Part shown: positions 4,477 to 52,673 of the stretch, in pieces
How positions within the stretch are numbered: position 1 is the stretch's first letter
How the letters are laid out: the number at the start of each line of letters is the position of its first letter
Assembly: GCA_947449495.1 (NCBI GenBank)
Contig: CANFSB010000008.1
Coordinates: 1-58,465, forward strand
Direction of reading: 5' to 3'
Length of the DNA: 58,465 nt
Source of the DNA: Pseudomonadota bacterium
Lineage (GTDB): Bacteria > Pseudomonadota > Gammaproteobacteria > Steroidobacterales > Steroidobacteraceae
Notes under the pieces: model-generated
What the model saw: the letters and a program-made list of their open reading frames with translations, nothing else
What the model was told of the DNA's origin: nothing
Databases searched by the model: none
Program-made: the position numbers and the translations under genes

Positions 4477-5424
4477 TTAGCGGCTGTTCAGTCGCTGAGT
4501 CAATTCCGGAACAATGTTGAACAGGTCGCCGACTAACCCCAAGTCTGCTGACTCGAAAATGGGTGCGTCTGCGTCCTTGTTGATGGCGACGATAGTCTTG
4601 GCATCTTTGATGCCAGTCATGTGCTGAATAGCCCCGGAAATACCCACGGCAATATACAGCTGCGGCGAAATGATTTTGCCCGTCTGACCCACTTGCAGTT
4701 CATTGGGCGCATAGCCTGCATCGACCGCTGCTCGCGACGCACCAACCGCCGCTCCCAAAGTTGCTGCCAGCTGCTCAATCAGTTTGAACTGTTCGGCACT
4801 TCCCAATGCGCGACCACCTGACACCACCGTTGCCGCCGTCTGCAAATCGGGGCGGTCGGTATTGGCCTGAGTCATCGAGACAAATCGAGTGTGCAAGGGC
4901 AGGGCAACCTGCAGAGTGCGAACAAGTACGCTGGCCGAACCGTCTCGAGTGACCTCGCCAAATGAGGCTGTCCGCACGGTTGCGACAATGACCGGTTGAT
5001 CGGCCTCAACCTCAACAATCAGGATGACGTTGCCAGCATAGATCGGACGGCGAAACCGTCGTGCCGATTCAACTGCCATGATGTCGCTGAGTTGAGGCGC
5101 ATCCAGCAGAGCAGCAACACGCGGCATGAGGTCCTTGCCAAAGGTCGTGGAAGGACCGAACACATGCGTGTAGCCCTCACGCACCAACGCCGCAATCTGC
5201 GGAGCCAGTACTGCCGCCAGTTGGGAGTCATTAGCCGGATTCTCGACCTGCACTACTTGTGCAACCCCCGCCAGCGTGGCTGCCTGGGCCGCAACTGCGG
5301 CTGAGCCCAGCACCATCACATCGACCTGTGCATCGGGTACCTGTACCGCGCAGCTGACGCATTTGGCAGTGGCGGCGTTGAGGTGGCTGCCATCGTGCTC
5401 AGCAACAATGAGAATGCGGTTCAT
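4477..5424 (-). CDS. etfA: Electron transfer flavoprotein subunit alpha
   Basis: 315 residues, the family's usual size. ETF is a soluble FAD/AMP heterodimer that takes electrons from acyl-CoA dehydrogenases and passes them to ETF:quinone oxidoreductase. The C-terminal FAD-binding region at about 238-285 holds GQTGKIISPQLYIAVGISGA, then QHMTGIKDAKTIVAINKD and ADAPIF, matching the alpha-subunit signature. It follows etfB with a TGATG overlap (start 5424), so the two subunits are translationally coupled. It fits with the beta-oxidation enzyme at 23703-25733. A terminator closes the operon at 4444-4470. Confidence 0.96.
   Translation of the reverse strand: MNRILIVAEHDGSHLNAATAKCVSCAVQVPDAQVDVMVLGSAAVAAQAATLAGVAQVVQVENPANDSQLAAVLAPQIAALVREGYTHVFGPSTTFGKDLMPRVAALLDAPQLSDIMAVESARRFRRPIYAGNVILIVEVEADQPVIVATVRTASFGEVTRDGSASVLVRTLQVALPLHTRFVSMTQANTDRPDLQTAATVVSGGRALGSAEQFKLIEQLAATLGAAVGASRAAVDAGYAPNELQVGQTGKIISPQLYIAVGISGAIQHMTGIKDAKTIVAINKDADAPIFESADLGLVGDLFNIVPELTQRLNSR
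4897..4904 (+). other. KOPS-like octamer GGGCAGGG
   Basis: Matches the FtsK-orienting consensus GGGNAGGG on the plus strand, inside etfA. It points right, toward the dif site at 29188. Confidence 0.5.
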
Positions 5425-6208: not shown

Positions 6209-6216
6209 GGGGAGGG
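6209..6216 (+). other. KOPS-like octamer GGGGAGGG
   Basis: Consensus match on the plus strand in the etfB-alaA intergenic region, pointing toward dif. It lies in the presumed etfB leader. Confidence 0.45.
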
Positions 6217-8824: not shown

Positions 8825-10080
8825 CAGTTGCTCCTCGCCGCACCGGCGACCGCGCGCACTTGCACACGACCTTCGTAGTGATCGCCGCGCTGCGCACCAG
8901 CGGTCAATTCGCTGCGATACCCGGCACCCACCAAGGCTTGGCTGACATGCTCCAGCGCTGCAGCATCTGCACCACCGAGCTTAAGATCCAGCGCACCGCG
9001 CCCAAACCCCAAAGACTGCACTCGCGCAGGACTTGCCGGGTTTTGCGCAGCAGCGACCACCGACAACATACCCAGCAAACCCTGCGCATCGGCACCGACC
9101 GACTGGGCCTGAGTCAAGCGCTGCTGCAGGCGTGTACGCAGGCCAGGCCCTGCCGATTCACCAGGCAACAAGGCCACAACCTGCTGACGCAGTTGTGCTT
9201 CGAGCAGCCTGTTTGTGGTGGTCAGTTGGCGAATCTGCCAAGACTGTGCAACCAGCTGCACGCCTGCCAGCAGCAAGGCCATCGCGGCAGCTACTCGCCA
9301 GCGTGACCAACCTTGGTATGAGTTTGAACGCGGCGCATAGCGTCCCTGCAGAAGATTGATGGCTTGTTGCTGCGGGACTTGTGCGGCCAACAGCGGCAGC
9401 ACACCCGCGGAGAGCAACTGCACTTTGAAAGAAGCCAGAGAAGGGCGCAGTGCCTCGAAAGCAGGCGCCTGCGACTGCCAATCTTGAGAAGACGCATAGA
9501 CAACCATATGTGAGACAGCCCGCTGCGCGGCATCCCCCAGCGCCAGATCAAGCGCAAATGTTGCATCGGTCGACGGCAATACCAGCGGTCGCTCACCCTC
9601 ACGGGTGATGGACAGAGTGTCGCGGTCGATCAGCACCGATATGACGCCAGGTACCTGTGGCACCAAACTGCTGTCCGCCTGCATGCTTTGAGGCGTAACG
9701 CCCAATGCCGCGACAGCCTCCAGCCAAGCATTCATCTTGCTATGGGCCACCACATCGACATCGACACGACCGGCCGCATCTACGCTGCGAGCCGTTGCAC
9801 AGTGCAATTGCTCGATATCGTCAGCCAAGTGTTCTTCAAGAGCATTGGGGACAACTTGGGCAAGTCTCGAGTCTGATCCCGGGGGCAGGGCCACACGCGT
9901 TTGCAGCACCTCTGCGCCAGGCACAATCACCACGACACGTTTATCCAAAGCAGCAGCCTGCAAGGCCTGTGCATCGCCGCTGACCGGTTGCTGGGTGAGG
10001 TGCCCACTGGGGGCCACACTGACCCAAACCGGCGGCTGATCGCCCTCGCGGCCCAGCCGCAGCAGTAACCAATCCGCCAT
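8824..10080 (-). CDS. gspL: Type II secretion system protein L
   Basis: 418 residues: an N-terminal cytoplasmic actin-like domain at about 1-240 that recruits the GspE ATPase, a membrane helix near 258-278 (after RWRVAAAMALLLAGVQLV), then a periplasmic domain. VVIVPGAEVLQTRVALPPGSD near 50-70 is typical of the family. gspL starts 12 bp after the gspK stop. No gspE partner gene is in the window. Confidence 0.92.
   Translation of the reverse strand: MADWLLLRLGREGDQPPVWVSVAPSGHLTQQPVSGDAQALQAAALDKRVVVIVPGAEVLQTRVALPPGSDSRLAQVVPNALEEHLADDIEQLHCATARSVDAAGRVDVDVVAHSKMNAWLEAVAALGVTPQSMQADSSLVPQVPGVISVLIDRDTLSITREGERPLVLPSTDATFALDLALGDAAQRAVSHMVVYASSQDWQSQAPAFEALRPSLASFKVQLLSAGVLPLLAAQVPQQQAINLLQGRYAPRSNSYQGWSRWRVAAAMALLLAGVQLVAQSWQIRQLTTTNRLLEAQLRQQVVALLPGESAGPGLRTRLQQRLTQAQSVGADAQGLLGMLSVVAAAQNPASPARVQSLGFGRGALDLKLGGADAAALEHVSQALVGAGYRSELTAGAQRGDHYEGRVQVRAVAGAARSN
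9883..9890 (+). other. KOPS-like octamer GGGCAGGG
   Basis: Plus-strand consensus match inside gspL, pointing toward dif. Confidence 0.5.
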
Positions 10081-12133: not shown

Positions 12134-12666
12134 CGTGCTGCCTCGGGCAATGGGGTGAATACGATGCTGTCATCCTGCGCTGCAGGCGCTGCTCGAAAGC
12201 CCTCCGCACTGCCTTCGCGCAACACGGTCAATTCAAACGCATTGAGCTCACCACTGGAATACAGCAGCACTTGCGGTGCCACAGATTTGGCGTCGGGCTT
12301 GGGCAATACCACAGGACGACCGTCAATCAATAAGCTGGCCTGCAAACCAGCGGGCAGGGTGCGCCGGCGCAACACGCGATCGTCTTCCGGGATGTTCTGC
12401 CATTGGGCGGCACGACTGTCGTAGCTCATGAACTCATAGCCGCCAGCAAACACGCGTAGTCCGTATTGTTCACTGTGAATGCCAGCCCTATCACGCACCA
12501 GCTGCAACAGAGTTTCGAGACGTTGACGCTCGGTCTCTACCTGACGATCCTGACCCAGCACGCCCAATGACAACAGTGCTCCGGCAGCAACGATGCCGAT
12601 GATCAGCATGACCACCAATATCTCGACCAGCGTGAAGCCTCGCTGGCCTTGCCGGTCAGCGATCAA
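12130..12666 (-). CDS. gspH: Type II secretion system minor pseudopilin H
   Basis: 178 residues from a TTG at 12666, the only standard start that gives a short prepilin leader (LIADRQGQRG) before FTLVEILVVMLIIGIVAAGA, with Glu at +5. The longer in-frame ATG at 12819 would add about 50 residues overlapping gspG and is unlikely. The TTG lies inside the last codons of gspG, so it is probably coupled. The rest matches GspH: QVETERQRLETLLQLVRDRA near 40-60 and EQYGLRVFAGGYEF near 65-80. Confidence 0.88.
   Translation of the reverse strand: MIADRQGQRGFTLVEILVVMLIIGIVAAGALLSLGVLGQDRQVETERQRLETLLQLVRDRAGIHSEQYGLRVFAGGYEFMSYDSRAAQWQNIPEDDRVLRRRTLPAGLQASLLIDGRPVVLPKPDAKSVAPQVLLYSSGELNAFELTVLREGSAEGFRAAPAAQDDSIVFTPLPEAAR
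12352..12359 (+). other. KOPS-like octamer GGGCAGGG
   Basis: Plus-strand consensus match inside gspH, pointing toward dif. Confidence 0.5.
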
Positions 12667-15482: not shown

Positions 15483-15490
15483 GGGGAGGG
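15483..15490 (+). other. KOPS-like octamer GGGGAGGG
   Basis: Plus-strand consensus match in the fabG-acpP gap, pointing toward dif. Confidence 0.45.
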
Positions 15491-17178: not shown

Positions 17179-18564
17179 ATGGGCGCGCCTAGATTCATAC
17201 GCCATCCGGTCGCCCTGCGGCCGGGTGTGCTGGCTGCGCTGGCTGCAGCCCATCCCGATCGCTATCCGGTAGTGCTCGACAGCGCGGCCAATGGACCGTT
17301 GGCCCAGTTCAGTCTGCTGGCTGCCAACGTACGCGGCAGCCTAGTCAAACATGCCGATGGACGCTTGCAGACCGGCGGCGATCAGCCGCCGCCTGCGTCC
17401 ATCTTGAAGGGCGGCTTTCTCGACTCGTTACGTGCCTGGATGACCTTGGAGTCACAACCGGCCCTGCCTGAGGCTGGCACGCCGTTTCACGGCGGCTGGT
17501 TTGTGTATCTAGGCTACGAGATGGCCAGCGAAGTCGAAGCGCGCCTGGTGCTACCGCAGGGCGATCTGCCGCAGGCTTTTGCGCTGCGCGTGCCAATGGC
17601 AGTCATTGAACAGTCAGACGGCCAAGCGTTCATCATCTGCGAGCCAGACGTGACCGAGGTACAGCTGGCGCAACTGCGCGACGACTTGGCACAGATCCCG
17701 CTACCCACCAGCAGCCCGTTAGAGATCACCGGAGTTTTCGAAGAAGCCCCAGAGCGCTATGAGCTGCGAGTTCGCCGCGCTCAGGACTACATTCGTGCAG
17801 GCGATGTGTATCAGGCCAATCTGTCACGCCCTTGGCGATTTGAACTGGCCGAGGGCACAACAGCGGGTCAAGTCTATGAGCGCCTGCGCAGCGCCAATCC
17901 TGCGCCGTTTGCCGCACTCGCGCAGTACGCAGGCGTACATCTGCTGTCGTCGTCACCCGAGCGTCTGGTGCGCATAGCCGGTAGCCGTCTCGATACGCGC
18001 CCCATTGCGGGCACACACCGCCGTGGCGCCACACCCGCAGAAGACCGGGAGCTGGCCGCACAATTAATCGCCCACCCCAAAGAGCGTGCCGAGCATGTGA
18101 TGCTCATCGATCTGGAACGCAATGATCTGGGACGCGTCTGCGAAGCCGGCAGTGTGCAGGTAGATGAATACATGGCAGTGGAAACCTATGCCCACGTGCA
18201 CCACATCGTCTCCAACGTCACGGGCCAACTGCGCAAAGACAAAGACGCCATCGATGTTCTGCGTGCCGTATTTCCTGGCGGCACCATTACCGGTTGCCCC
18301 AAACTGCGCTGCATGGAAATCATTGCCGAACTGGAAGCCGAGGCTCGCGGTGCCTACACCGGATCGTTGGGTTATCTCAATCGCGATGGCAGTGGTGACT
18401 TCAACATCCTCATCCGTACGATGACGCTACACGGCCGCGAGATCCGCTTTCGGGCAGGGGCGGGCATCGTGGCCGATTCCGATCCCACTCGCGAGCTGCA
18501 CGAGACACGGGCCAAGGCTCGCGGCATGCTGCTGGCACTGGGGCAACGAGGCGAGACACCATGA
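17179..18564 (+). CDS. pabB: Aminodeoxychorismate synthase component I
   Basis: 461 residues from ATG 17179. Chorismate-utilising enzyme that makes 4-amino-4-deoxychorismate for folate synthesis. C-terminal core landmarks: ERNDLGRVCEAGSV, HVHHIVSNVTG, FPGGTITGCPK and GAYTGSLGYLN. pabC follows with an ATGA overlap, which argues for PabB over anthranilate synthase. Odd point: where E. coli PabB has Lys274 in PIKGT, this protein has PIAGT (Ala277), the TrpE-type residue. The glutamine amidotransferase partner (pabA/trpG) is not in the window. Confidence 0.88.
   Translation: MGAPRFIRHPVALRPGVLAALAAAHPDRYPVVLDSAANGPLAQFSLLAANVRGSLVKHADGRLQTGGDQPPPASILKGGFLDSLRAWMTLESQPALPEAGTPFHGGWFVYLGYEMASEVEARLVLPQGDLPQAFALRVPMAVIEQSDGQAFIICEPDVTEVQLAQLRDDLAQIPLPTSSPLEITGVFEEAPERYELRVRRAQDYIRAGDVYQANLSRPWRFELAEGTTAGQVYERLRSANPAPFAALAQYAGVHLLSSSPERLVRIAGSRLDTRPIAGTHRRGATPAEDRELAAQLIAHPKERAEHVMLIDLERNDLGRVCEAGSVQVDEYMAVETYAHVHHIVSNVTGQLRKDKDAIDVLRAVFPGGTITGCPKLRCMEIIAELEAEARGAYTGSLGYLNRDGSGDFNILIRTMTLHGREIRFRAGAGIVADSDPTRELHETRAKARGMLLALGQRGETP
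18452..18459 (+). other. KOPS-like octamer GGGCAGGG
   Basis: Plus-strand consensus match inside pabB, pointing toward dif. Confidence 0.5.
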
Positions 18565-23702: not shown

Positions 23703-25733
23703 TTATCCAGACCAACCGGCATCTGGTGTGAAGCGTGCACCGTGTGTGAGCGCCAATTTCTCAAGACGCTGCGTGACTTGCGTCACACCTGTGTCGCGTG
23801 ACCATGCCAACGGGCCACCGCGAAACGGCGCAAATCCGGCACCAAACACCAACCCGGCATCGACCAGATCTGCATCGGCAACGATACCTTCACGTTCGCA
23901 GGCTTTACTCTCATTGACCAACGCCAGCACCAAGCGGTCCTGCAGGTCCGCAGGCACTTGGCTGCGATCCACACGAACTTTCACCGGCTTGCCATCAACC
24001 CAAGAGTAAAAGCCCTGACCCGTCTTGCGGCCGAGCTTGCCGGCAGCAATCAGCGTTTGGATGCGCGTCAGCGGCAAGGGGGGGGCACGGCCACTGAGTT
24101 GGCCTACGGTTTCACCCACCTTGCTACATACATCAAGACCAACCACATCGGCCAACTCGATGGGCCCCATTGGCATGCCCCAATCCGTTGCGGCCAGATC
24201 AATAAGCTCTGGCGCCACACCCTGCTCAAGGGCAATCAAGGCTTCCAGCAGATAGGGCGCAAGCACTCTGTTCACCAAAAAACCAGGATTGCTTTTGCAC
24301 GGCAGTGGCAAGCGATCCAACTGACGGGCGAAGCGCACTGCTGCTTGACGCATTGCATCGCTGGTATTGGCAGATGAAACCACCTCAACCAAGGGCATCT
24401 GTGCCACAGGATTGAAGAAGTGCAACCCAACCAAGCGTTCGGGTGACTGCAGAACTGTGGTCAAGGACTCCAATGTCAGACTGGAAGTGTTGGTCGCCAG
24501 TAGCGCATCAGGTTTCATGGCCTTTTCGAGACGCTGCAGCAAGTCGTGCTTGGCTTGCAAGTTCTCGTAGATGGCTTCAATGACCACATCGGCCGTTGCA
24601 ACACCGTTACCGGCAATATCCATCTGCAGACGCGCCGCGGCAGCCGCGCGCTTTGCAGGATCACGCAAACGCTTGTCAAACAGTGCCGCTGCACGGCTCA
24701 ACGCCGGCTGCACTTGTTCTGCAGTACGGTCTTGCAGGGTGACGTTCAGTCCACGCAGCGCACACCAAGCTGCAATGTCACCGCCCATCACACCGGCACC
24801 AACGACATGCACGCGGCGCAACGGCGCAACGGCTGCGTCCTTGCCGCCCAGCGCTTTCAAGCGATCCTGCAGCAGAAATACGCGCACCAGATGGCGTGCC
24901 GTACCGGTACGGAACAGCCGACCCACCGACAGGGCCTCAACCTCAAAGGCCTGCGGCCCCTGCGCACCGCTCTGGACCCAGCTGTCTACCAGTGCATAGG
25001 GGGCAGGGTAGTGATCTGGTTTGATCTTGGCGCGTAGCTGAGCCTTCAACAGCCGGGCAAGCTGACCGCGAACCAACGACCACGAGAGCAAGCGCTCAAG
25101 CAGGGGTGGCTGGTGACGCGGTGGCCGCTGGCGCAGCAGTTCAAGACACACAGCCTCGCCTTGATCTGCATTGACTACACGGTCCACTAATCCCATGCGC
25201 AGTGCTTTGTCGGCCCGGACCGTGCGGCCGGTAAGCATCATGTCCATTGCCGGCCGCACGCCCAGCAGTCGCACAGCACGCACGCTACCGCCGAAGCCAG
25301 GATGGATACCCAACTGCACCTCGGGCAGGCCCAGTGCCAGCGCACCGTCATCGACAGCCACGCGGTACGTGCACGCCATGGCCAGCTCCAAGCCACCACC
25401 AAGCGCAAAGCCACGCAGCAATACCGCAGTGGGGCAGGGCAGCGCCTCAATGCGATCAAACAGACGCTGTCCGCGCCGCACCATCTGCAGGGCCTCTTCC
25501 TCGCTGGCAACGCGTGCAAACTCGTTGATATCAGCTCCGGCGATGAAGCCGCTGGGCTTGGTCGAGCGAATCAACAGGCCCCGAGGCGGGTCTGCCTCCA
25601 GCTGCTGCAGAACCTCGCCCAACGCTTCGAGCACTTCAATAGAGAGTGTATTGGCAGAGCGCCCGCCCACGTCCAAGCTCAGTGTGCCGATACCCTCATC
25701 ATTCTTTGAATAGTGCCAAGCAGAGTCAGCCAT
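23703..25733 (-). CDS. fadJ: FadJ-type multifunctional beta-oxidation enzyme
   Basis: 676 residues from ATG 25733 with a clear aaggag RBS in the tail of the upstream gene. The enoyl-CoA hydratase domain at 1-190 has SGFIAGADINEF and catalytic Glu116 (LGGGLELA) and Glu138 (LPEVQLG). The 3-hydroxyacyl-CoA dehydrogenase part from about 300 has the NAD motif VGAGVMGG and HFFNPVAQMPLVEVV, then two C-terminal HAD repeats. It oxidises fatty acyl-CoAs with a separate thiolase not seen here; ETF in this window would take electrons from the preceding dehydrogenase step. Confidence 0.92.
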   Translation of the reverse strand: MADSAWHYSKNDEGIGTLSLDVGGRSANTLSIEVLEALGEVLQQLEADPPRGLLIRSTKPSGFIAGADINEFARVASEEEALQMVRRGQRLFDRIEALPCPTAVLLRGFALGGGLELAMACTYRVAVDDGALALGLPEVQLGIHPGFGGSVRAVRLLGVRPAMDMMLTGRTVRADKALRMGLVDRVVNADQGEAVCLELLRQRPPRHQPPLLERLLSWSLVRGQLARLLKAQLRAKIKPDHYPAPYALVDSWVQSGAQGPQAFEVEALSVGRLFRTGTARHLVRVFLLQDRLKALGGKDAAVAPLRRVHVVGAGVMGGDIAAWCALRGLNVTLQDRTAEQVQPALSRAAALFDKRLRDPAKRAAAAARLQMDIAGNGVATADVVIEAIYENLQAKHDLLQRLEKAMKPDALLATNTSSLTLESLTTVLQSPERLVGLHFFNPVAQMPLVEVVSSANTSDAMRQAAVRFARQLDRLPLPCKSNPGFLVNRVLAPYLLEALIALEQGVAPELIDLAATDWGMPMGPIELADVVGLDVCSKVGETVGQLSGRAPPLPLTRIQTLIAAGKLGRKTGQGFYSWVDGKPVKVRVDRSQVPADLQDRLVLALVNESKACEREGIVADADLVDAGLVFGAGFAPFRGGPLAWSRDTGVTQVTQRLEKLALTHGARFTPDAGWSG
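25001..25008 (+). other. KOPS-like octamer GGGCAGGG
   Basis: Plus-strand consensus match inside fadJ, pointing toward dif 4.2 kb away. Confidence 0.5.
25432..25439 (+). other. KOPS-like octamer GGGCAGGG
   Basis: Second plus-strand match inside fadJ, pointing toward dif; the closest match found on the left side. Confidence 0.5.
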
Positions 25734-26578: not shown

Positions 26579-27859
26579 ATGTCAGCTGCAAAGAGACCCG
26601 TCCAGCCCAGCCGCGAGAGCAAATCTGCGGCCCTTGAGGCTGCGCGCAGCATCGGACCGGGACTAATTACCGGCGCCGCCGATGATGATCCCAGTGGCAT
26701 TGCCACCTATTCGCAAGCCGGCGCCCGCTTTGGCACGGGAATGTTATGGACCGTAGTACTGACCTTTCCGTTAATGGCTGCCATCCAGATGATCAGCGCA
26801 CGTATCGGTCATGTGACAGGCAAAGGACTGACAGCCAATATCCGCCGCGTCTTCCCTGCCTGGGTCACCTTCAGCATCGCAGCGCTGCTGGTACTGGCCA
26901 ACACCCTCAACATTGCTGCCGACATCGCTGCAATGGGGGAGGCGCTACAGCTGCTCATCGGCGGTAACAACGGCCTTTATAGCGTGGGCTTTGGTCTGGT
27001 GTGTCTACTGCTGCAAGTCTTCTTGCCGTATCGCAGCTACGTGCGCTGGCTCAAATGGCTCACGCTATCGCTGTTCACCTATGTGGCTGTTGTGTTCAGC
27101 CTGCATATCGACTGGAGCAGCGTGGTCCTAAGCGTGGTATGGCCACAATTACTGCTCGACCATGGCGCGTTACTAATGATCGTGGGCGTGTTTGGCACCA
27201 CCATCAGCCCCTATCTTTTTTTCTGGCAAGCCGGTCAAGAGGTAGAAGATAGGACCGGTACGGAAACGCCTGCGCAGGTACGCCAGCAATTGCGCCGCAT
27301 CAAACTCGACACGATCATCGGCATGGCTTTCTCCAATCTGGTCGCCTTCTTCATCATCCTGTGCGCAGGCGTCACACTGCATGATGCGGGCATTACCGAC
27401 ATAGAGACCTCGGCGCAGGCCGCCGAAGCCCTGCGCCCACTGGCAGGTCGATTCACATTTCTGCTGTTCACCTTGGGAATCATCGGCACCGGCCTGCTGG
27501 CAGTACCGGTGCTTGCAGGTTCTGCCGCCTATGCCGCTGCAGAAGCACTGGGGCTGCGCGGTAGCCTGTCGTTCCGCCTAGAGCACGGTGAGGGCAAAGG
27601 CTTCTATAGCATCGTGGCGTTGGCTACGTTGGGCGGTGTCGCACTGTCGTTCTCGCCCACCAGCGCTTTGGCAGAGCTGTTCTGGGCCGCAGTGCTCAAT
27701 GGCATCATCGCCGTCCCGATCATGTTGGTGATGATGATCGTGGCATCACGCACCGAAGTGATGGGCGAGCATCGCATCCGCGGCAGCCTGCGACTGCTAG
27801 GTTGGCTCAGTACAGCGGTGATGACAGCCGCTGCGAGCGCGTTGCTGCTGACGTTTTAA
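26579..27859 (+). CDS. Nramp (SLC11)-related metal ion transporter
   Basis: 426 residues, about 11 membrane helices. TM1 has GPGLITGAADDDPSGIATYS (27-46), where canonical Nramp has DPGN; TM6 has GTTISPYLFF (206-215), where canonical Nramp has the metal-binding Met-Pro-His. Both substitutions mark a divergent branch that includes the Nramp-related magnesium transporters, so Mg or another hard cation is plausible, but substrate cannot be fixed from sequence. Divergent from the EEP gene. Its stop codon overlaps the convergent DUF4010 gene by 4 bp. Confidence 0.85.
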   Translation: MSAAKRPVQPSRESKSAALEAARSIGPGLITGAADDDPSGIATYSQAGARFGTGMLWTVVLTFPLMAAIQMISARIGHVTGKGLTANIRRVFPAWVTFSIAALLVLANTLNIAADIAAMGEALQLLIGGNNGLYSVGFGLVCLLLQVFLPYRSYVRWLKWLTLSLFTYVAVVFSLHIDWSSVVLSVVWPQLLLDHGALLMIVGVFGTTISPYLFFWQAGQEVEDRTGTETPAQVRQQLRRIKLDTIIGMAFSNLVAFFIILCAGVTLHDAGITDIETSAQAAEALRPLAGRFTFLLFTLGIIGTGLLAVPVLAGSAAYAAAEALGLRGSLSFRLEHGEGKGFYSIVALATLGGVALSFSPTSALAELFWAAVLNGIIAVPIMLVMMIVASRTEVMGEHRIRGSLRLLGWLSTAVMTAAASALLLTF

Positions 27860-29130
27860 AGCCAGCTGCCATGCTGCTGCAGCCACAGCGTCACCGCTGC
27901 CGCCAACACACCCGAGCCCAAGCCCCCACCAATGCGCAGTGCATAAGCACGGCCGCCAGTGACGCCCGCCAATACAACCTTGGCCAGTGAAGCGCAGGCC
28001 AATACAGCTATCAGCCCCCATTGAGACTGCACTGCTGATAAAGCCTGTGCGCCAAACAGCTGGGCTAAGCTGGCCACAGCGGCATGCACCTCGGCCAGAG
28101 CCACCACCATGGTCGCAAGCAGAGCACCGGAGACACCGAGCCATTGGCGCAACCAGGCAGCAAGCAGCAACAACACTGCGATCGCTGCCGCCAGCCACAG
28201 CGCCTGACTGAGACGAAAACTGCGCCCTTGCACATCACCGGGCATGGCCGCATCTACAGCCGTCAATGCGATACCGGGCGAGGCTGCAAGGGCCAGCACG
28301 ACGCCCATTGCCAGCAACGGCCAGGCACACCCTGCCAGCAGGGCCGGAGAGGCTGTCCCCAAGACAGCTGCCATCAACAACAATGAGGCCAGATTGGCGA
28401 GGAGGGCGGCGGACACCGCCGGCAGGAGCAGAGCAGGGTAAAGACGCACGCGATGGCCGAAGCCACCGACAACCGCCAGGGACGACGCAAACCCCGAGCA
28501 GAAACCCGCCACGGCATAGCCCCAGCGTGCGCCTACCGCGCGCCGTGCGACCTCGCCCATCATTCCAACCGCCATCACCAGCACCACCAATCGCCACAAA
28601 CGCGCGGGTACCAGAACGCCCCAGGGATCTACGGGCATAGACGGCAACCAAGGCAGCACCACCAACGCAGAACCGGCCAACAACAAGGCATCCTCAACCT
28701 CGCGAGCGCTCAGCACATCGCGGGCAAACCGGTGCAGCGGCAACTTCGCATAAAGCAGACCTGCAGTAACCACAGCCAATGCAGCTGCCAGCAAAGGTTC
28801 GTGCTGCGCAAATCCAGCCAGCAACACCGTTCCCAGCACGGCGACTTCGCTGGTCAAACCACGGTCTTGAGGTGCAGAACGCAAATACGCAGCAATGGCC
28901 AGTCCACCGACCAAGACCAACACAGCAGTGAACACCGCAATGCCTAGGCTGATTGCCACACCGGCAACAAGCGCTAACAAACTGTGGGTACGAATGCCGG
29001 CGATGCTGTTAGACGTATCAGAGCGCGTGCGCTCGCGCACGACACCGATCATCAGGCCGATGCCCAGTGCAGTGAGCAGGCGCTGCGGCTCCAGATCAGC
29101 AAAGGCGGCAAAGTCCTGGGAACTGGCGAT
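27856..29130 (-). CDS. MgtC/SapB-type DUF4010 membrane protein (probable AUC start)
   Basis: About 424 residues and roughly 11-12 hydrophobic helices. The conserved N-terminal helix LLTALGIGLMIGVVRERT lies upstream of the first ATG (29052), so that ATG cannot be the true start. Between the in-frame TAG at 29140-29142 and 29052 there is no ATG, GTG or TTG. An ATC at 29130 sits 6 nt after a gGGAG Shine-Dalgarno (minus strand), giving ASSQDFAAFADLEPQR before the conserved helix. DUF4010 proteins are usually fused to or near MgtC domains; function unknown. It is convergent with the Nramp-type gene, with overlapping stops. Confidence 0.8.
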   Translation of the reverse strand: MASSQDFAAFADLEPQRLLTALGIGLMIGVVRERTRSDTSNSIAGIRTHSLLALVAGVAISLGIAVFTAVLVLVGGLAIAAYLRSAPQDRGLTSEVAVLGTVLLAGFAQHEPLLAAALAVVTAGLLYAKLPLHRFARDVLSAREVEDALLLAGSALVVLPWLPSMPVDPWGVLVPARLWRLVVLVMAVGMMGEVARRAVGARWGYAVAGFCSGFASSLAVVGGFGHRVRLYPALLLPAVSAALLANLASLLLMAAVLGTASPALLAGCAWPLLAMGVVLALAASPGIALTAVDAAMPGDVQGRSFRLSQALWLAAAIAVLLLLAAWLRQWLGVSGALLATMVVALAEVHAAVASLAQLFGAQALSAVQSQWGLIAVLACASLAKVVLAGVTGGRAYALRIGGGLGSGVLAAAVTLWLQQHGSWL

Positions 29131-29187: not shown

Positions 29188-29215
29188 ACTTCGCATAATG
29201 TATATTATGTTAAAT
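29188..29215 (+). other. dif: dif site (XerC/XerD chromosome dimer resolution)
   Basis: 28-bp XerCD site. XerC-side arm acttcgcataa (29188-29198), 6-bp spacer tgtata, XerD-side arm ttatgttaaat (29205-29215). The spacer and XerD arm equal E. coli dif exactly and the XerC arm differs only at three outer positions, so 25 of 28 bases agree. The site lies between the DUF4010 gene and hslR, in the longest gene-free gap of the window. KOPS-like octamers on both sides point to it. No phage or element has inserted here. Confidence 0.93.
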
Positions 29216-29276: not shown

Positions 29277-29681
29277 GTGGTACCCAACGACGCACCTGAC
29301 GACCGCCAACGCTTAGACAAATGGCTCTGGAGCGTTCGTCTGTTTAAAACCCGCTCCCAGGCCGCCGCTGCCGTGGCTGGCGGCAAGGTCAAGGTCAATG
29401 GCGAACGCACCAAGCCTGCCCATGCGCTGCGAGCCGGTGATTGTCTGACGCTGGCTATTAACGACGATCCGACAGAATTGCAGGTGTTGGCGTTTGCAGC
29501 GCGCCGCGGTCCGGCCGCTGAAGCGCGCGCCTGCTACATCGAGTCCATCAAGAGCCAGGAACGTAAACAGGCTAATCAGCAGCTTCGCCAGCTGGCGGCC
29601 TTGAGCCGACCTCGACCTGACACCAAGCCAGATAAACGTGAACGTCGGCAGATGGAAAAACTATTGCGCGACATTGAATGA
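29277..29681 (+). CDS. hslR: Ribosome-associated heat-shock protein Hsp15 (S4 domain)
   Basis: 134 residues from GTG 29277. S4 RNA-binding domain at about 10-65: QRLDKWLWSVRLFKTRSQA and GGKVKVNGERTKPAHALRAGD. The C-terminus has the Hsp15 tail RPDTKPDKRERRQMEKLL. Hsp15 binds free 50S subunits that carry a stalled nascent chain. First gene on the right side of dif. No RBS is visible; a leaderless transcript is possible. Confidence 0.93.
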   Translation: MVPNDAPDDRQRLDKWLWSVRLFKTRSQAAAAVAGGKVKVNGERTKPAHALRAGDCLTLAINDDPTELQVLAFAARRGPAAEARACYIESIKSQERKQANQQLRQLAALSRPRPDTKPDKRERRQMEKLLRDIE

Positions 29682-31896: not shown

Positions 31897-33132
31897 ATGA
31901 CCGTGCCTGTCAGCCGCGAACCGCGCCAAGCGGCTTTCATCTTCATCTTCATCACCGTGGTACTCGATCTGATCGCGGTCGGTATCGTTGCACCCGTACT
32001 GCCCAAGCTCGTCACCGGTTTTGAAGGCGGCAACATTGCCTCCGCAGCGTTGTGGACCGGCCTACTGGCCACGCTATGGGCAGCCATGCAGTTCATTGCG
32101 GCTCCCATCATGGGCGCGCTGTCAGATCACTTCGGGCGGCGCCCGGTCATTCTGGCGTCCAATGTAGGACTAGGACTCGACTACGTGCTGATGGCACTGG
32201 CGCCTTCGCTGGGTTGGCTACTGGTAGGGCGAATGTTGTCGGGCATTACCTCCGCCAGCTACCCCACAGCAGCCGCTTATATCGCTGACGTCACGCCTGC
32301 AGACAAACGCGCAGCTCGCTACGGCATGTTGGGCGCAGCATTTGGTTTGGGATTCATCATCGGACCGGCCGCAGGCGGACTGCTGGGCAACATCGACCTC
32401 CGGTTGCCCTTCTGGGTCGCCGCCGGCTTAAGCCTTGCCAATGCGATGTACGGTCTATTCATCCTGCCCGAATCGTTGCCCCCTGCCCTGCGTCGCCCCT
32501 TCAGCCTGCGGCGTGCCAATGTCATCGGCTCCATCAAATTGCTGCGCTCGCATCCGCAACTGGGTGGACTGGCACTGGTGTTGTTTGTCATGGCACTGGC
32601 GCACGAAGCCCTGCCCAATCTGTTCGTGCTGTATACCGACCAGCGCTACGGCTGGAGTGCTGCCACCGTCGGCCTAGCCCTATCGGCCATAGGTGTAGGC
32701 AGCTCAATCGTGTCGATGTCCTTGGTACGACCGGTCACCCGACATCTAGGCGAAAGCCGCACCGCGCTCATCGGTTTGTCACTAGGTGTGGCAGCGTATC
32801 TGGTGTTTGGGCTGGCACCGACGGGCAGCGTGTTTCTAGCCGGCATCGCTTTGGTAGCGTTGTATGGCATCGCGGGCCCTGCCATCCAGTCGCTGATGAG
32901 CCAACGCGCCGACCCAACAGTACAAGGCCATCTGCAGGGCGCCATCGGCAGCCTGCGTGCCATCACGGGCATGATCGGACCGCTGCTGTTCACGCAATTG
33001 TTTTCGGGCGTCGTCAGCCGCGGCGGCCACGGACTGTGGCTGGGCGCACCCTATATGTTGGCTGCCTTGTTGCTGGCAGCCGGATTGCTGCTGGCACTGC
33101 GCGTACTGCCGGTCGCTGACCAGCAGCACTGA
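31897..33132 (+). CDS. MFS transporter, TCR/Tet-like branch
   Basis: 411 residues, 12 predicted membrane helices. Motif A GALSDHFGRRPVIL lies between helices 2 and 3, and helix 1 has the FITVVLDLIAVGIVAPVLP pattern of the drug:H+ antiporter-1 group. Chromosomal members of this branch are common and transport varied compounds, so no drug substrate is claimed. Its stop is 8 bp from the stop of the convergent lipoprotein gene. Confidence 0.9.
   Translation: MTVPVSREPRQAAFIFIFITVVLDLIAVGIVAPVLPKLVTGFEGGNIASAALWTGLLATLWAAMQFIAAPIMGALSDHFGRRPVILASNVGLGLDYVLMALAPSLGWLLVGRMLSGITSASYPTAAAYIADVTPADKRAARYGMLGAAFGLGFIIGPAAGGLLGNIDLRLPFWVAAGLSLANAMYGLFILPESLPPALRRPFSLRRANVIGSIKLLRSHPQLGGLALVLFVMALAHEALPNLFVLYTDQRYGWSAATVGLALSAIGVGSSIVSMSLVRPVTRHLGESRTALIGLSLGVAAYLVFGLAPTGSVFLAGIALVALYGIAGPAIQSLMSQRADPTVQGHLQGAIGSLRAITGMIGPLLFTQLFSGVVSRGGHGLWLGAPYMLAALLLAAGLLLALRVLPVADQQH
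32481..32488 (-). other. KOPS-like octamer (GGGCAGGG on minus)
   Basis: CCCTGCCC on the plus strand inside the MFS gene. It reads leftward, toward dif. Confidence 0.5.
32609..32616 (-). other. KOPS-like octamer (GGGCAGGG on minus)
   Basis: Second minus-strand match in the MFS gene, 128 bp from the previous one, also toward dif. Confidence 0.5.
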
Positions 33133-37964: not shown

Positions 37965-39265
37965 GCGCCGCGCACCTGCAGCCCGGCAGCAGCAGCCACC
38001 TGCAGAAAGTCAGGGAATGATGTGGCGACGTTCTCCACATCATCGATGTGGATATCACCATCCGCACGCAGGCTGGCAACTGCAAAGGCCATCGCAATGC
38101 GATGGTCGCCATGACTGTCTATGTGGCCACCGGTGAAGCGCTGCCCACCCTGAATGCGAATGCCGTCGGGCAGCAATTCATTAACTATCCCCAAGCGCGT
38201 GAGGCCTTCAGCCATCACTGCCAAGCGATCGCTTTCTTTGACACGCAGTTCTTCGGCGCCGGTAACCAGTGTCTCGCCACTTGCACAAGCCGCAGCGATA
38301 AACAGCACCGGAAATTCATCAATCGCCAAAGGGACCAAGGCCTCGGGCACATGAATGCCGCGCAATTGCGAGGCACGCACAGAAATATCTGCAACGGGCT
38401 CGGCACCTGCGCCGACGCGCTCGTGAACGCGAACGTCCGCACCCATCAGACGCAGAATATCGAGCAGACCGGTGCGAGTCGGATTGACGCCAACGTTCTC
38501 AATCACAAACTCTGTGCCACCGGCCAATGCCCCAGCAACCAGAAAGAACGCGGCGGAGGAAAAGTCGCCCGGTACGCTGACCGGCGCCGCGGTGAGCTTC
38601 TGCCCGCCGGCCAACCAGACGCTGCCGGCATCACGTCCGATAAGCACGCCGAAGTCCTGGAACATACGCTCGGTATGATCGCGCGTGGGCGCCGGCTCGC
38701 TGACGCGGGTGATGCCTTCGGCCTGCAGAGCAGCTAGCAAGATAGCCGATTTGACCTGCGCGCTGGCCATCGGCAGGGCGTAATCGATGCCCTGCAAACG
38801 GGTCACTGGCGCAATGCGCACCGGCGGCTTGCCATCGAGCGTCTCGATCTGAGCCCCCATCAAACGCAGCGGCTTGGCAACGCGCTCCATAGGACGCTTG
38901 CGCAGTGACTCGTCGCCGGTAAGCGTAGTGGCAAACTTCTGGCCACTGAGCAAACCCATGAACAAACGAATCGCAGTGCCAGCATTGCCCATATCCAGCT
39001 GAGCTGAAGGCGCCTGCAGACCACGCTCACCCACACCGTGCACACGCAACTGAGTCGGCGACAAACGCTCCACGTGCACACCCATCATCTGCTGGGCACG
39101 CAAAGTAGCCAGACAATCGGCACTGGCCAGAAAACCATCGACCTCAGTGACACCATGGGCAATGCCACCGAGCATCACCGAACGATGTGATATGGATTTG
39201 TCGCCAGGGACGCGGATGCTGCCATTGACCTGTGTCGCAGGCGTGGCGATAAAACGCTGGGTCAT
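37961..39265 (-). CDS. aroA: 3-phosphoshikimate 1-carboxyvinyltransferase (EPSP synthase)
   Basis: 434 residues. Sixth step of the shikimate pathway. [14 protein letters not shown] at 18-31 with Lys23, [18 protein letters not shown] near 91-108, [12 protein letters not shown] near 193, [14 protein letters not shown] and HGDHRIAMA near 396. The SISHRS and RDHTERM forms are closer to class II enzymes (Bacillus, Agrobacterium) than to E. coli AroA. One base separates it from hisC. Confidence 0.97.
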
Positions 39266-45447: not shown

Positions 45448-46167
45448 GTGACAAACCCTGCCCAATCCAGCGCCGATCCGGCCGAAATCGCCAAGTTCGA
45501 CGCCCTCTCCCACCGCTTCTGGGATGAGAGCGGCGAGTTCAAACCGCTGCACCGCCTCAACCCGGTGCGTGCTGCATGGGTCGCACAGCATTGCCCTCTT
45601 GATGGCAAGCGCGTGCTGGATGTCGGCTGCGGCGGCGGTCTGCTGGCCGAGGCACTGGCGCGCCGTGGCGCACAGGTCACTGCCATTGACCGCGCACCGG
45701 GAATGATCGATGTCGCACGCCTGCACGCAGCAGAATCCGGCCTTGCTATCGACTACCGCGTACAAGATGCAGAAGCCGTGCTGGCAGATCCTGCACAGCG
45801 CTTTGACGTGGTCTGCTGCATGGAGATGCTTGAGCACGTCGCTGATCCGGGTTCAATGATCGCTACGCTGGGCGGCCTTCTGGCACCGGGTGGCCAGCTG
45901 TTTGTCTCCACTCTCAACCGCACCGCCCGCGCCTTTGCCTTGGCCATCGTCGGGGCCGAATACGTGCTGCGGCTGTTGCCGCGTGGCACGCACACCTACG
46001 AGCGTTTCATCAAACCTGCCGAGTTGGGCCACTGGGCACGCGCGGCAGGCTTGCGACTGGATGATCTGGCCGGCATTGATTACGAGCCGTTCTCGGGCCG
46101 TGCAAGTCAAACCACCGACGTCAGCGTGAACTACATGGCCCGTCTGCTACCCCAGGCAGGCTCATGA
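45448..46167 (+). CDS. ubiG: 3-demethylubiquinol 3-O-methyltransferase
   Basis: 239 residues from GTG 45448. SAM-dependent methyltransferase for two O-methylation steps of ubiquinone synthesis. FDALSHRFWDESGEFKPLHR at 17-36 and LNPVRAAWV are UbiG signatures; motif I VLDVGCGGGLLAEALARRG at 57-75; EMLEHVADP near 130; HTYERFIKPAEL near 190. No Shine-Dalgarno; possibly leaderless. It overlaps mupP by ATGA. Confidence 0.96.
   Translation: MTNPAQSSADPAEIAKFDALSHRFWDESGEFKPLHRLNPVRAAWVAQHCPLDGKRVLDVGCGGGLLAEALARRGAQVTAIDRAPGMIDVARLHAAESGLAIDYRVQDAEAVLADPAQRFDVVCCMEMLEHVADPGSMIATLGGLLAPGGQLFVSTLNRTARAFALAIVGAEYVLRLLPRGTHTYERFIKPAELGHWARAAGLRLDDLAGIDYEPFSGRASQTTDVSVNYMARLLPQAGS
45456..45463 (-). other. 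KOPS-like octamer (GGGCAGGG on minus)
   Basis: CCCTGCCC on the plus strand, in the first codons of ubiG, reading toward dif. Confidence 0.5.
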
Positions 46168-52109: not shown

Positions 52110-52673
52110 ATGACTGCGTTGCTCGAACTTGTGCCGCTGCTGATCAGCATCGGCGCCTATTTTTACCAAGGCCGCGATATCTACGTCGCCACCGCCACCT
52201 TGATGGTCAGCATGACGTTGATGCTGCCCGTGATCTGGGTGGCCGGGCGTAGCCTGCCCAAGATGTACCTGCTCAGCACGGTGCTGGTGCTGGTCTTCGG
52301 CACGGCCACACTGGTGCTGCACGACCCGCTCTTCATCAAATGGAAACCGACCCTGTTTCTGTGGATGGTAGGCATCGCCTTTCTGATCAGCGGCTTCGTC
52401 GGCCAGCAGCCGCTGGCCCAGCGACTCATGCAACCTGCCCTGCCCGACTTGCAGCTGCCGCGCGCAGCCTGGCTGCGCGTCAATCACCTGTGGGTGGTGT
52501 TCTATGCGGTCTGCGGACTTGCCAACATCATTGCTGCGCTGCGGCTGCCAGAGGCACTGTGGTTCTCCTGGCATGGATTGGCCTTGGGCCTGGCCAGTAT
52601 GCTGTTTATTCTGGCTCAGGCTTACTGGCTAGGCAGGCGAGCTGGGCCACCCGCTGCGGCCAACGACCCATGA
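52110..52673 (+). CDS. yciB: YciB/IspZ inner-membrane septation protein
   Basis: 187 residues with five or six membrane helices. LVPLLISIGAYFYQGRDIYVATATLM at the N-terminus is given here in part (GRDIYVATATLMV), with TLVLHDPLFIKWKPTLFLWM at 66-85, the diagnostic YciB motif. Known to influence cell-envelope synthesis and septation. It overlaps bolA by ATGA. Confidence 0.93.
   Translation: MTALLELVPLLISIGAYFYQGRDIYVATATLMVSMTLMLPVIWVAGRSLPKMYLLSTVLVLVFGTATLVLHDPLFIKWKPTLFLWMVGIAFLISGFVGQQPLAQRLMQPALPDLQLPRAAWLRVNHLWVVFYAVCGLANIIAALRLPEALWFSWHGLALGLASMLFILAQAYWLGRRAGPPAAANDP
52438..52445 (-). other. KOPS-like octamer (GGGCAGGG on minus)
   Basis: CCCTGCCC on the plus strand inside yciB, reading toward dif; the most distant match found on the right side. 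Confidence 0.5.

Follow-up and report, generated by a model that had tools for sequence, protein, structure and literature searches.

The dif site is a standard sequence of 28 letters at which XerC and XerD separate accidentally joined chromosomes before division, and such a site of dimer resolution is a different thing from a site of replication termination. The closest described counterpart of the locus considered here is that of Thiobacillus denitrificans, for which Table 1 of a survey of dif sites in proteobacteria, published in 2009, prints an identical 28-mer (PMC2731167). Distances between dif and the GC-skew maximum in the same survey have a median of 7.3 kb and can be as short as 146 bp or as long as 199.6 kb, and another paper places replication termination near, not at, dif (PMC3025954).

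The locus lies at positions 29188–29215 of the window, by which we mean the whole 58,465-nucleotide stretch of DNA that was analysed. It shares all 28 of its bases with the T. denitrificans site, which is likewise intergenic and low in GC (PMC2731167), although the two sites belong to different organisms and different gene neighbourhoods. Moreover, the survey reports a GC-skew maximum 9.3 kb from the T. denitrificans dif (PMC2731167), whereas no such maximum is found in the neighbourhood of the present site. The dif of Neisseria meningitidis agrees at 27 of 28 bases, differing at position 2, and sits inside a hypothetical gene (PMC2731167), in contrast to the intergenic position seen here. As an earlier note on this DNA had stated, 25 of 28 bases are common to this site and the dif of E. 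coli; the spacer and the XerD arm are identical, and only positions 1, 2 and 4, all in the XerC arm, differ. The FtsK-orienting motif KOPS of E. coli has the same sequence, and the same orientation toward dif, as the KOPS of the window (PMC2680272, together with general knowledge of that system). Finally, E. coli has both Tus and MatP, each recovered in positive controls, whereas neither was found in the genome to which the window belongs.

Sequence, Position and Copy Number of the dif Site

Read directly from the plus strand of the window, and following the arm layout in PMC2731167, the site consists of an 11-bp XerC-side binding arm, ACTTCGCATAA (29188–29198), a central hexanucleotide spacer, TGTATA (29199–29204), and a conserved 11-bp XerD-side binding arm, TTATGTTAAAT (29205–29215). 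Its GC content is 21%, compared with 61% for the window, and it is partly palindromic, its reverse complement matching it at all but 8 positions. It occupies a 224-bp intergenic gap between two divergently oriented genes, as the earlier note had also described: on the left, a DUF4010 membrane protein gene on the minus strand (27856–29052; PF13194, 98.8 bits), and on the right, a gene on the plus strand for an S4-domain, Hsp15-like protein (29277–29681; PF01479, 49.6 bits; NF007673, 101 bits, which is below the cut-off of 148). No open reading frame of 80 or more amino acids in the window's ORF list covers the site.

At up to 3 mismatches, the window contains a single match to the 28-mer, namely dif itself, and no match at this level arose in 100 dinucleotide-preserving shuffles. 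The next-best matches in the window have 12 mismatches, once the site's own palindromic reverse (8 mismatches) is set aside. Similarly, the best match to the E. coli dif has 3 mismatches in the real window, as against never fewer than 8 in 200 first-order Markov simulations of it, a value of 8 being attained in 2 of the 200.

A search of the full genome for other copies, which the earlier note had proposed, found none; at up to 3 mismatches, the 24-base core of the site occurs once. Among 60 related genomes, this one included, the core was present at the same threshold in 45, and in 44 of these 45 it occurred exactly once, while a backwards control of the core matched in 0 of the 60. The 15 genomes in which the core was absent at this threshold include 7 of the 48 that are at least 90% complete, the remaining 41 of those 48 having it. 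Within the genus, 8 of 9 genomes possess the core, and the sole miss (G008) is 85% complete. One of the 60 genomes (G021) is the only one with two dif-like sites, at C23:176614 and C13:23314 (2 and 3 mismatches), which may point to an additional replicon or to an element that has integrated. The exact 28-mer is found in at least 119 stretches of the genome_contigs collection, and the 80 matches listed come from gamma- and betaproteobacteria, except for two whose record titles name alphaproteobacteria (Rhodobacteraceae and Rhizobium).

KOPS Polarity and the Resolution Machinery

A motif scan for KOPS, GGGNAGGG, showed that all 12 occurrences in the window point at dif. To the left of the site, eight lie on the plus strand and none on the minus strand: GGGCAGGG at 4897–4904, 9883–9890, 12352–12359, 18452–18459, 25001–25008 and 25432–25439, and GGGGAGGG at 6209–6216 and 15483–15490. 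To the right, none lies on the plus strand and four lie on the minus strand, reading CCCTGCCC on the plus strand, at 32481–32488, 32609–32616, 45456–45463 and 52438–52445. The polarity thus switches between 25,432 and 32,481, an interval that includes dif. The pattern on the left arm (at least 8 plus and 0 minus) was reproduced in 0 of 300 Markov simulations of that arm. Genes also tend to point toward dif, with 18 plus and 10 minus on the left and 7 plus and 17 minus on the right, according to a simple, home-made gene caller.

The same polarity was found in relatives of the organism. Twenty of the 45 core-positive genomes, the window among them, were picked by list order and contig size before any KOPS count, and their pooled occurrences amount to 64 plus and 6 minus on the left and 8 plus and 49 minus on the right, so that 113 of 127 point toward dif. 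The polarity is weak in some of these relatives, with plus-to-minus counts on the left and right of 0:0 and 2:2 in G007, 2:1 and 1:2 in G024, and 3:2 and 1:3 in G031. When gapped 8-mers were ranked for dif polarity across the 20 genomes, GGGNAGGG came first of 15,550, and it kept this rank among the 15,341 that remained when the window was left out. In the seven other members of the genus it was first of 9,590, and in the window taken by itself it came second of 5,621. These ranks compare only patterns of one shape, since the template, with three bases, an N and four further bases, is KOPS's own, and they cover only patterns that occurred 8 times or more.

The proteins expected to act at such a site are encoded in the same genome. 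It holds two proteins of the Phage_integrase family at E ≤ 0.001, one XerD and one XerC: the former scores 386.8 bits against the NCBIfam XerD cut-off of 329.6 and falls under the XerC cut-off, and the latter scores 365.7 bits against the XerC cut-off of 335.15 and falls under the XerD cut-off. There is also one FtsK gamma domain, at 96.9 bits. As judged from gene and motif content, then, the whole predicted dif apparatus (xerC, xerD, the ftsK gamma domain and converging KOPS) is encoded.

The 28-mer is, with a probability of roughly 97%, the dif of this chromosome, and it would act in FtsK–XerCD resolution of chromosome dimers in the middle of the terminus region. By analogy with the E. coli system, an odd number of crossovers would fuse the sister chromosomes into a dimer, and FtsK at the septum would be steered by KOPS along both arms to dif. 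The gamma domain of FtsK would there activate XerD, bound to the right arm of the site, and XerC on the left arm would then complete strand exchange and yield two monomers. It is from E. coli that the binding of XerC and XerD, their activation by FtsK, the order of strand exchange and the resolution of dimers would carry over to this organism. The site at 29188–29215 is a genuine, intact, well-placed and ordinary dif, of a kind known for a long time.

GC Skew and the Position of the Terminus

The earlier note had gone further in describing the window as spanning the terminus and the site as the place where replication forks converge. The possibility that dif marks the meeting point of the forks, and hence the terminus in the strict sense, draws support from relatives. 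The genome itself is in 159 contigs, and the distance between dif and dnaA was obtained from two relatives assembled as single contigs, both of which were assumed to be circular. In G035 (3,467,246 bases), dnaA lies at 3,462,110–3,463,489 and dif (core with 2 mismatches) at 1,730,045, 49.95% of the chromosome length apart, while in G018 (4,649,652 bases), dnaA lies at 2,350,765 and dif (core with 3 mismatches) at 39,084, a separation of 49.7%. Dif is thus opposite dnaA in both. Moreover, the GC skew sampled along G035 is positive in all 9 samples taken between 0.18 and 1.64 Mb and negative in all 10 taken between 1.80 and 3.44 Mb, with a slightly negative sample at base 1, and over a 320-kb stretch the cumulative skew peaks 4.9 kb from its dif. 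About 320 bases to the right of the G035 dif, at C1:1730385-1730861, there is a 267-amino-acid frame with a weak match to DnaA, present in three copies of equal score; our guess is that it is perhaps an IstB-type insertion-sequence ATPase.

The composition of the window itself speaks against such a meeting point. Its GC skew is −0.040 to the left of dif and −0.057 to the right, so that it is negative on both sides, with no switch anywhere in the 58 kb and no cumulative maximum close to dif within that span. The earlier note had named the lack of a skew switch near 29.2 kb as grounds for refuting its reading, and it is this lack that was found. To the left of dif, third codon positions read along the plus strand have a skew of −0.096 in plus genes and of −0.132 in minus genes; to the right, the corresponding values are −0.080 and −0.051. 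Intergenic skew is −0.062 on the left and −0.036 on the right. Gene orientation was considered as a cause of the negative skew of the left arm and is ruled out, because the skew is negative at third positions in plus and minus genes alike and also in intergenic DNA. Within the first 40 kb of each of ten other contigs sampled from the same genome, the KOPS majority agrees with the sign of the skew in 10 of 10 (the skew of C6 being near zero, at −0.002), which makes the left arm of the window an exception.

Relatives show comparable offsets. In G002, the 36 kb to the left of dif have near-zero to negative skew. In G006, the left arm shows a skew close to zero over some 60 kb, and clearly positive values appear only past 100 kb; KOPS, counted in 10-kb bins over 147 kb, point toward dif by 23 to 1. 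The left flanks of dif in the window (1–29187) and in G006 (L234–L240) share a pattern in which KOPS run toward dif and the skew is opposite or near zero. Beyond the genus, the switch points of skew and KOPS were compared in stretches of G035 and G011, and G018 contributed geometry only; in G011, KOPS switch at dif, and over a 200-kb stretch the cumulative skew peaks 58 kb to the right of it. A separate peculiarity was seen in contig C13 of G002 (L195–L210), where, about 64 kb to the right of dif, the direction of KOPS and the sign of the skew reverse again and stay reversed to the end of the contig, as would follow from a recent inversion or a chimeric contig.

Tus (PF05472) gave 0 matches at E ≤ 0.001 in this genome and MatP (PF06303) gave none, with the E. 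coli controls positive for both, so that neither a Tus/Ter fork trap nor a MatP-organised Ter domain was encountered. Together with the argument of PMC3025954 that termination occurs near dif, these observations leave a strict coincidence of dif with the meeting point of the forks improbable, despite the geometry and skew of G035 and the geometry of G018. The earlier claim of fork convergence at the site is accordingly unsupported as it was written. The broader claim that the window spans the terminus stands in part: KOPS change orientation within the interval 25.4–32.5 kb and dif lies opposite dnaA in two relatives, but the skew does not switch.

The lack of a skew switch counts against the identity of the site as dif, as do the 15 genomes without the core and the weak KOPS polarity of some relatives, but proximity to the skew maximum is a usual correlate of dif and no requirement. 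The offset falls within the known range, given the published distances (PMC2731167) and the placement of termination near, not at, dif (PMC3025954), and the GC-skew maximum of this chromosome appears to lie to the left of the window. We read the observations as showing that dif and KOPS are locked together and that the turning point of the skew, a record of where forks met, is looser. It is conceivable, at rather less than even odds, that in this genus tens of kilobases lie between the centre set by FtsK, KOPS and dif and that of strand composition, with KOPS flipping at dif and the left arm already carrying a skew of the other replichore's sign.

Improbable Alternatives: Mobile Elements and Chance Resemblance

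A further explanation would see in the 28-mer not the native dif but a copy of an attachment site that a Xer-dependent mobile element (an IMEX or a pdif module) had left behind or carries. Such elements do carry dif sites, as the exact 24-base core occurs in at least 120 stretches of IMG/VR, and the gene directly to the right of dif differs among congeners. Against this, the core is single-copy in the genome, the window has no second dif-like site, and KOPS converge at this one. Of the 52 called genes of the window, 40 were scanned with Pfam or NCBIfam, and no family of integrases, transposases, phages or other mobile elements appeared among these 40; all 52 called genes, together with dif, are collinear in G002. 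An attachment-site origin is hence very improbable. An element integrated at dif was likewise rejected, on the single copy, the lack of element genes among those scanned and the order kept in G002, and the earlier description of the site as intact and free of an integrated element holds. Plasmid records gave no match to the 27.8–31.3 kb segment at E ≤ 1e-5, and neither tRNAs nor Rfam families were found in the window.

Several side observations concern the neighbourhood and the viral records. The gene directly to the right of dif encodes the Hsp15-like protein in the window, in G002 and in L117; its place is taken in G003 (L157) by a 366-amino-acid ORF that, by eye, reads like a fatty-acid desaturase, and in G005 (L160, L161) by a 183-amino-acid ORF. 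The gene at 31897–33132 of the window encodes an MFS transporter related to efflux pumps of the Tet(A/B/C) type, with a score (306.6 versus 475) well below every curated cut-off shown, and for this reason it is probably an ordinary chromosomal transporter. Among the 80 IMG/VR matches listed (L241–L320), several have the core at the same distance, 33 or 32 bases, from the end of their contig, which is what Xer-integrating phages would show.

Lastly, a chance AT-rich or promoter-like match has almost no probability left, since, although the 28-mer does sit in the 224-bp gap between divergently oriented genes, the shuffles, the Markov simulations and the once-per-genome conservation of the core in 44 of 45 genomes refute it, in line with the earlier judgement that the match goes far beyond chance.

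Implications for the Genome and the Genus

With the 28-mer taken as the dif of the chromosome, the site securely anchors the terminus in a draft of 159 contigs, in that contig C8 holds the dimer-resolution point. In addition, KOPS polarity can be used to orient other contigs of the draft, as it agreed with the sign of the skew in all ten sampled. The offset between KOPS and GC skew is mildly interesting, and the rest of the finding is ordinary. Should the two centres truly be apart in this genus, forks would usually meet to the left of dif, and the orientation of KOPS in that region would be kept by selection for the steering of FtsK and would not merely follow from the richness of the leading strand in G. 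The disagreement of KOPS with GC skew next to dif is a small natural test of the idea that different forces keep the two signals.
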